Shown: positions 55,076-55,645 of the stretch, one piece after another
Layout of the letters: each line of letters opens with the position of its first letter
Numbering within the stretch: position 1 is the stretch's first letter
DNA from: Blastocatellia bacterium
GTDB lineage: Bacteria; Acidobacteriota; Blastocatellia; Pyrinomonadales; Pyrinomonadaceae
Assembly: GCA_003168335.1 (NCBI GenBank)
Contig: PMSM01000011.1
Location: forward strand, 223,001-287,000
Direction: 5' to 3'
Length of the DNA: 64,000 bases
The notes under the pieces: model-generated
Seen by the model: the letters and a program-made list of their open reading frames with translations, nothing else
What the model was told of the DNA's origin: nothing
The model's database searches: none
Program-made: the position numbers and the translations under genes

Positions 55076-55645
55076 ATGACCTGGATTAAGACCATACCCA
55101 TCTCTGAAGGTGACGAGAAGCTGCGTTGCGCCGTTGAAGCGCAGCGTGAATTGTATCCGGCAGAGTATGCAGTGCCGATTCATCCCACAGCCGATGGCCA
55201 GGCGTCGCATATCGTCGCTTCGCACAGCCTGATCCCAGAGGCGCTTCATCACGCGTTTGCCACCTTCGGCGTATTGATGTCGCCTGACCTTCCGCTCACC
55301 AGACGACAACACGAAATGATCACCACCGTCGTTTCCGTTACTAATCGCTGCCACTATTGAATCGAATCCCACGCAGAGTTTCTGCGTCGAGTTACCCTGG
55401 ATGACGAGTTGGTGAGAGCGCTGCAGGAGGATTACCGGACCGCGCCGATTTCTGAGCAGGACAGAGTAATGCTCGATTACGTTGCCCAACTGACTCGCGA
55501 TGCCACGCGCATTTCTGCGCGGGATCATGAGCGGCTGCGAGCCACAGGATTTGATGACCAGGCCATCCTGCAGATCACGCTGATCGCGTCGTGGTTTAAT
55601 TACATCAATCGCGTGGCCGACGCGTTAGGCGTGGGAAGAGATTAA
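55076..55645 (+). CDS. Candidate selenoprotein: AhpD-like/carboxymuconolactone-decarboxylase-family peroxidase-related protein, Sec (TGA 55358-55360) at the second Cys of CxxC
   Basis: In-frame continuation across TGA: ...[19 protein letters not shown][U][22 protein letters not shown]...; fits AhpD motif E-x11-C-x2-[C/U]-x3-H exactly. Confidence 0.75.
55371..55387 (+). promoter_or_regulatory. Candidate bSECIS hairpin for the AhpD-like gene
   Basis: ACGCAGA-GTT-TCTGCGT, 7-bp perfect stem, G first in apical loop, 17 nt between TGA and loop. Confidence 0.65.

Follow-up and report, generated by a model that had tools for sequence, protein, structure and literature searches.

An AhpD-like gene with a TGA codon at its active site

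Does the TGA codon inside the AhpD-like gene at 55076..55645 (+) break the gene, or does it encode selenocysteine (Sec)? The gene lies in a 64,000-nt stretch of DNA, referred to here as the window. Read through, it encodes 189 residues followed by a TAA stop, with a start methionine that was nearly invariant in 48 homologues. The read-through translation contains a single internal TGA between ATG and TAA, in agreement with the initial annotation, which had described a frame free of any other lesion up to the stop at 55645. A search with a TIGR01926-type HMM, suggested there as a check, placed the protein above the cut-off for TIGR01926 ('peroxidase-related enzyme'; 114.4 bits versus 81.8), and PF02627 was also matched (38.1 bits versus a cut-off of 23). 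Under the standard code, the same DNA yields two pieces, a 5' ORF that stops after residue 94 and an in-frame 78-residue ORF starting from TTG, which is the kind of split that had been anticipated for an ORF caller.

The TGA (55358..55360, +) occupies the second Cys position of the AhpD redox motif, which fitted exactly as originally proposed (E80-x11-C92-x2-U95-x3-H99), giving an active-site CxxU of C92-H-Y-U95. Glu80 (codon 55313..55315, +), equivalent to Glu118 of Mycobacterium tuberculosis AhpD, fell in an invariant column in the 48 homologues. Position 1 of the CxxU, Cys92 (55349..55351, +), was Cys in all 96 distinct Sec sequences that made up the main set, and His99 (55370..55372, +), equivalent to His137 of M. 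tuberculosis AhpD, was at least 90% conserved. Glu80 and His99 correspond to the proton-relay residues of the motif, Cys92 is the probable resolving thiol and Sec95 the probable catalytic selenol. We consider it very probable that the gene is intact and that its UGA is read as Sec95, giving an AhpD-like redox selenoenzyme; this reading draws on the sel genes of the host genome, the conservation of the TGA, the existence of Cys homologues, purifying selection and a bSECIS hairpin.

Sec machinery of the host genome

The host genome (5.16 Mb, 14 contigs) was placed in the Acidobacteriota near the Pyrinomonadaceae from its named close relatives. An Acido-Lenti-1 RNA within the window (RF01687, 45.4 bits, 59174-59219, -), belonging to a small RNA family of unknown function, fits this placement. 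SelA (530 bits), SelB (381 bits), tRNA-Sec with the anticodon UCA and SelD were all present in this one genome, so that a lack of Sec machinery, named at the outset as grounds for rejecting a selenoprotein, does not apply. Furthermore, the host selD itself (L018, G000:C7:141967-142896, -) carries an in-frame TGA (VSCSG-U-AAK), which points independently to the decoding of UGA as Sec in this genome.

Suppressor-like tRNAs have been reported in Acidobacteria, and the UGA might accordingly be read as Cys or Trp through such a tRNA or a changed code. Trp was indeed frequent at the Sec column in database proteins, occurring in 72 of the 120 nearest (P0002-P0121), mostly from short JGI contigs; these entries are probably table 4 gene calls of Sec TGA codons. 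Against a Cys or Trp reading, the only UCA tRNA found was tRNA-Sec. No second UCA tRNA was found among the typed tRNAs of the host genome, which otherwise carried ordinary anticodons only, including CCA for tRNA-Trp and GCA for tRNA-Cys. One tRNA-like match (32.5 bits) was left untyped and was not called by ARAGORN. With a bSECIS hairpin following the TGA and a Sec-type TGA in the SelD gene of the same genome also opposing it, decoding as Cys or Trp is extremely improbable.

Conservation of the TGA codon and occurrence of Cys forms

Matches in 151 relatives and 80 loci taken from named genomes gave a combined 123 loci matched at the TGA column; some genomes occurred in both sets, leaving 96 distinct sequences. 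TGA was found at the Sec column in 122/123 of these loci. Most of the named loci came from Acidobacteriota and Gemmatimonadota; one MAG was labelled Latescibacterota and another Pirellulales, either of which may reflect a binning error. Close orthologues in the 151 relatives had exactly one stop, a TGA, the exceptions being short fragments and a single copy in genome G150. Extra frameshifts or stops in close relatives, which would have pointed to gene decay, were looked for and no further lesions were found in the orthologous copies. This, alongside the complete Sec machinery, supports the selenoprotein interpretation of 55076-55645 put forward in the initial annotation.

Seen in one sequence only, a lone TGA in an otherwise intact gene can look like a recent pseudogene or a sequencing error, in which a Cys codon (TGC or TGT) has turned into TGA. 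Across the loci, however, the same column carried the TGA almost without exception, and its presence in more than 100 independently assembled loci makes a read error untenable. The protein was also conserved past the TGA: pN/pS was 0.41 upstream and 0.21 downstream (94 comparisons), indicating that both sides are under purifying selection. Since the codons of the downstream hairpin were frozen as well (see below), the probability of a pseudogene or an error is vanishingly small.

The sole non-TGA locus, in G150, carried TGC (context ANRTRYCSLSH). It was the only Cys orthologue confirmed in the relatives panel, and its genome had no selA match, which itself argues for Sec being the residue encoded by the TGA forms. 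In addition, 12 distinct metagenome DNA sequences had TGC at the TGA column; Cys was thus found in homologues at the position where the initial annotation had proposed to look for it. Several Cys forms lacked the first Cys, having Thr at position 1 and reading T-x-x-C (L052:4456-5034; L231, L232, L234, L236, L237, L238, L241). The second position is therefore the one kept by these forms, and a resolving Cys does not appear to be always needed. For the six genomes in which selA had no match at all (G046, G080, G141, G143, G144 and G150), the matches listed did not include a TGA form. Four TGA-form genomes were below the selA cut-off, three with partial matches (G053, G088, G135) and one, G122, with a weak match only. 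The last counts against the Sec reading, but selA may be missing there through a binning gap.

In a tree of 109 proteins, the backbone of which was poorly resolved with bootstrap values not settled, most Cys forms, including all of those verified at the DNA level, fell within one 17-row clade (97/94). This clade sat among Sec forms and the distant outgroup was also Sec, which suggests an ancestral Sec with one or more later replacements by Cys. As a U may have been entered as C in some database 'C' rows, no larger number of replacements is claimed.

A bSECIS hairpin downstream of the TGA

The hairpin at 55371..55387 (+), with a 7-bp stem (ACGCAGA/TCTGCGT) and a GTT loop (55378-55380), was identified as a bSECIS element because its codons are frozen at synonymous sites, its stem stays paired with compensatory change, Cys forms have lost it and it agrees with the published model. 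It was present as initially described, and the distance of 17 nt after the TGA given there is correct for the G of the apical loop but wrong for the stem, which starts after a spacer of 10 nt. The bSECIS model specifies an apical loop of 3-9 nt on an upper stem of 4-16 bp, a G within the first two positions of the loop, with G or U often coming next, a distance of 16-37 nt from the UGA to the apical loop, and an MFE of at most -7.5 kcal/mol (PMC13188914). The hairpin agreed with all four constraints (3-nt loop and 7-bp stem; G then T; 17 nt; MFE -9.2 kcal/mol), so the initial claim of bSECIS-like spacing was borne out. Folding z-scores were -2.8 for a 37-nt piece and -1.0 for a 43-nt piece. 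Folding energy on its own was weak evidence of a SECIS for the 43-nt piece, so comparative pairing was used; the energy of a single hairpin is less telling, and the comparative evidence carries the weight.

Codons +4 to +9 (CAC GCA GAG TTT CTG CGT) were frozen at synonymous sites. GCA accounted for 89/95 Ala, TTT for 94/94 Phe and CGT for 91/96 Arg codons in the hairpin, in comparison to background usage in the same genes of 9%, 32% and 10%, respectively. As the sequences are related and not independent, binomial values on these codons are not to be read as probabilities, and it is safer to compare the hairpin with its flanks: pS was 0.039 in the six hairpin codons versus 0.745 upstream and 0.746 downstream. 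Judged from this contrast and the near-invariant TGA column, chance can be considered excluded.

Among 148 distinct Sec sequences, the seven stem pairs were formed in 97.2% of cells, compared with 20-69% when the stem was slid, and the G at loop position 1 was kept in 147/148. Sec relatives with ~35-45% identity had GGG...CTC in place of GCA...CTG, with the C14-G24 pair swapped for G14-C24 (a compensatory change), and at locus L066 the stem was wholly different (CCGGCGC-GGTCT-GCGCCGG). Cys forms kept 3-6 of the seven pairs, mostly 3-4, and mostly used TTC and CGC. With a frozen hairpin on one side and natural Cys forms that have lost it on the other, the family lends itself to clean comparative tests of the constraint on a bSECIS. 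Collectively, these sequence comparisons strongly support Sec insertion at position 95.

Predicted structure and mechanism

The AlphaFold2 model of the AhpD-like protein was all-helical (pLDDT 94.3), and its best PDB matches were the AhpD-like proteins 6k40, 2prr, 2pfx and 2oyo (TM ~0.8), well above M. tuberculosis AhpD. Glu80 was predicted to lie in helix 76-90, Cys92 just before helix 93-107 and Sec95 at the start of the latter, a placement matching the two-helix active site described for the AhpD family (PMC3141380). The spacing of Glu118, Cys130, Cys133 and His137 in M. tuberculosis AhpD is the same as that of E80, C92, U95 and H99; both Cys residues of that enzyme are named as catalytic, and the related protein PA0269 reduces H2O2 weakly (PMC3141380).

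The predicted fold also bears on whether the UGA acts mainly as a selenium-controlled stop, with the short product, or a restart at the 78-residue TTG ORF, being functional in itself. Partial termination at Sec UGA codons is common in bacteria and the in-frame TTG ORF does exist. However, a product that stopped at residue 94 would have the active-site helical hairpin of the model (76-90, 93-107) cut in two, and conservation extended across the whole protein, making a regulated stop very improbable.

For a full-length Sec95 enzyme, we propose that SelA and SelD would make Sec-tRNA-Sec(UCA) and that SelB would bind the hairpin that starts 10 nt past the UGA, delivering Sec at position 95. The product would be an all-helical AhpD-like enzyme with Sec95 in place of the second Cys of CxxC, the residue that serves as the nucleophile in M. 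tuberculosis AhpD. Glu80 and His99 would activate the Sec95 selenolate via the AhpD proton relay, and the selenolate would then most likely attack a peroxide or disulfide. Cys92 would resolve Sec95 as a selenenylsulfide, with re-reduction presumably by a cellular thiol donor. Clustering of ORFs around the 80 named loci revealed no shared partner, and hence no conserved operon naming a substrate or donor; the commonest neighbour-ORF cluster occurred in 20/80 loci.

Peroxide- or disulfide-reducing chemistry is probable, given that the fold and active-site motif are those of peroxidase-related AhpD-like proteins. A selenoprotein with non-peroxide chemistry, for example a gamma-CMD-type decarboxylase or a Bmp8-like reductive dehalogenase, would accord with membership of PF02627, a family named after carboxymuconolactone decarboxylase, and with the related fold of the debrominase Bmp8 (6ohi/6ohj, TM ~0.74). 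The best structure matches were nevertheless to peroxidase-related AhpD-like proteins, and the redox motif E-x11-C-x2-U-x3-H was complete, whereas gamma-CMD members lack the CxxC (PMC3141380). We therefore regard such chemistry as unlikely.

A DUF3179 selenoprotein gene as convergent neighbour

The convergent neighbour (55723..56985, -) is a second selenoprotein gene, from a family already known. Read through, it matched PF11376 (212 bits). Its one in-frame TGA (56452-56454) stands in the context TY-U-TLC and is followed by a hairpin (CACACC-GGTCT-GGTGTG, 56426-56442, loop GGTCT), both the TGA and hairpin being conserved in relatives. It is a member of the DUF3179 selenoproteins (PF11376, UxxC/T; PMC9312934, PMC13188914), a family separate from the AhpD-like one. 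A read-through scan of the 64,000-nt window for further selenoprotein genes, a method which misses genes under long antisense ORFs, the AhpD-like gene itself included, identified only the DUF3179 gene convincingly.

In 5/41 DUF3179-bearing genomes (G000, the host, and G002, G092, G111 and G126), and additionally at locus L104:1444-3278, a DUF3179 gene had an AhpD-like Sec gene within ~600 nt. These pairs came from several families and differed in orientation. As the genes were apart in most genomes, a functional link is no more than a lead. A redox partnership of the Sec AhpD-like enzyme with the DUF3179 protein, which often contains Sec too, is tentative and rather doubtful. If true, the uncharacterised DUF3179 domain would gain a partner.

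Relation to known selenoproteins

The gene encodes a putative redox enzyme that depends on Sec and belongs to Acidobacteriota and Gemmatimonadota abundant in soil. The protein is truncated at residue 94 by standard gene calling, and in many metagenome entries Trp stands at the predicted catalytic position; corrected annotation would give many soil genomes an added selenium-dependent function.

Several known groups share the AhpD-related fold, including NF041238 (AhpD_rel_CFYUT), NF053654 (YciW-related) and NF041047 (a distant AhpD homologue), of which NF041238 and NF041047 are listed as CxxU in literature tables. Scores for NF041238, the alkylhydroperoxidase-related (seleno)protein model, and NF053654 were below their cut-offs (57.9 versus 175 bits and 40.6 versus 310 bits, respectively), and NF041047 was absent from the profile matches; no dedicated NCBIfam selenoprotein model scored above its cut-off for this clade. 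Classical AhpD membership was likewise rejected (TIGR00777, 21.9 bits versus 191.95), and M. tuberculosis AhpD (1gu9, 1knc), despite the same Glu/Cys/Cys/His spacing, was a poor structural match (TM ~0.55). The peroxidase-related AhpD-like structures, which also include 3c1l, share the fold and a CxxC motif at 24-31% identity, with Cys at the Sec position in the aligned 2pfx and 2oyo.

Knowledge of AhpD-like selenoproteins with a CxxU goes back to 2005. They were described from the Sargasso Sea (PMC1088965) and, as AhpD-like COG2128, from genomes (PMC1794560), and CxxU forms are tabulated under TIGR01926 (PMC13188914). The protein described here belongs to this same COG2128/TIGR01926 family, with which it shares the CxxU, a bSECIS directly downstream and Cys homologues (PMC1088965, PMC1794560, PMC9312934, PMC13188914). 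Published members include marine and clostridial ones, which may or may not fall in the same subclade; the present clade is mostly from soil Acidobacteriota and Gemmatimonadota, and no description of the Acidobacteriota clade itself was found in the open-access literature consulted. The kind of selenoprotein is thus already known, and the gene adds a new, well-supported member to it, one whose product is split or mistranslated in databases.
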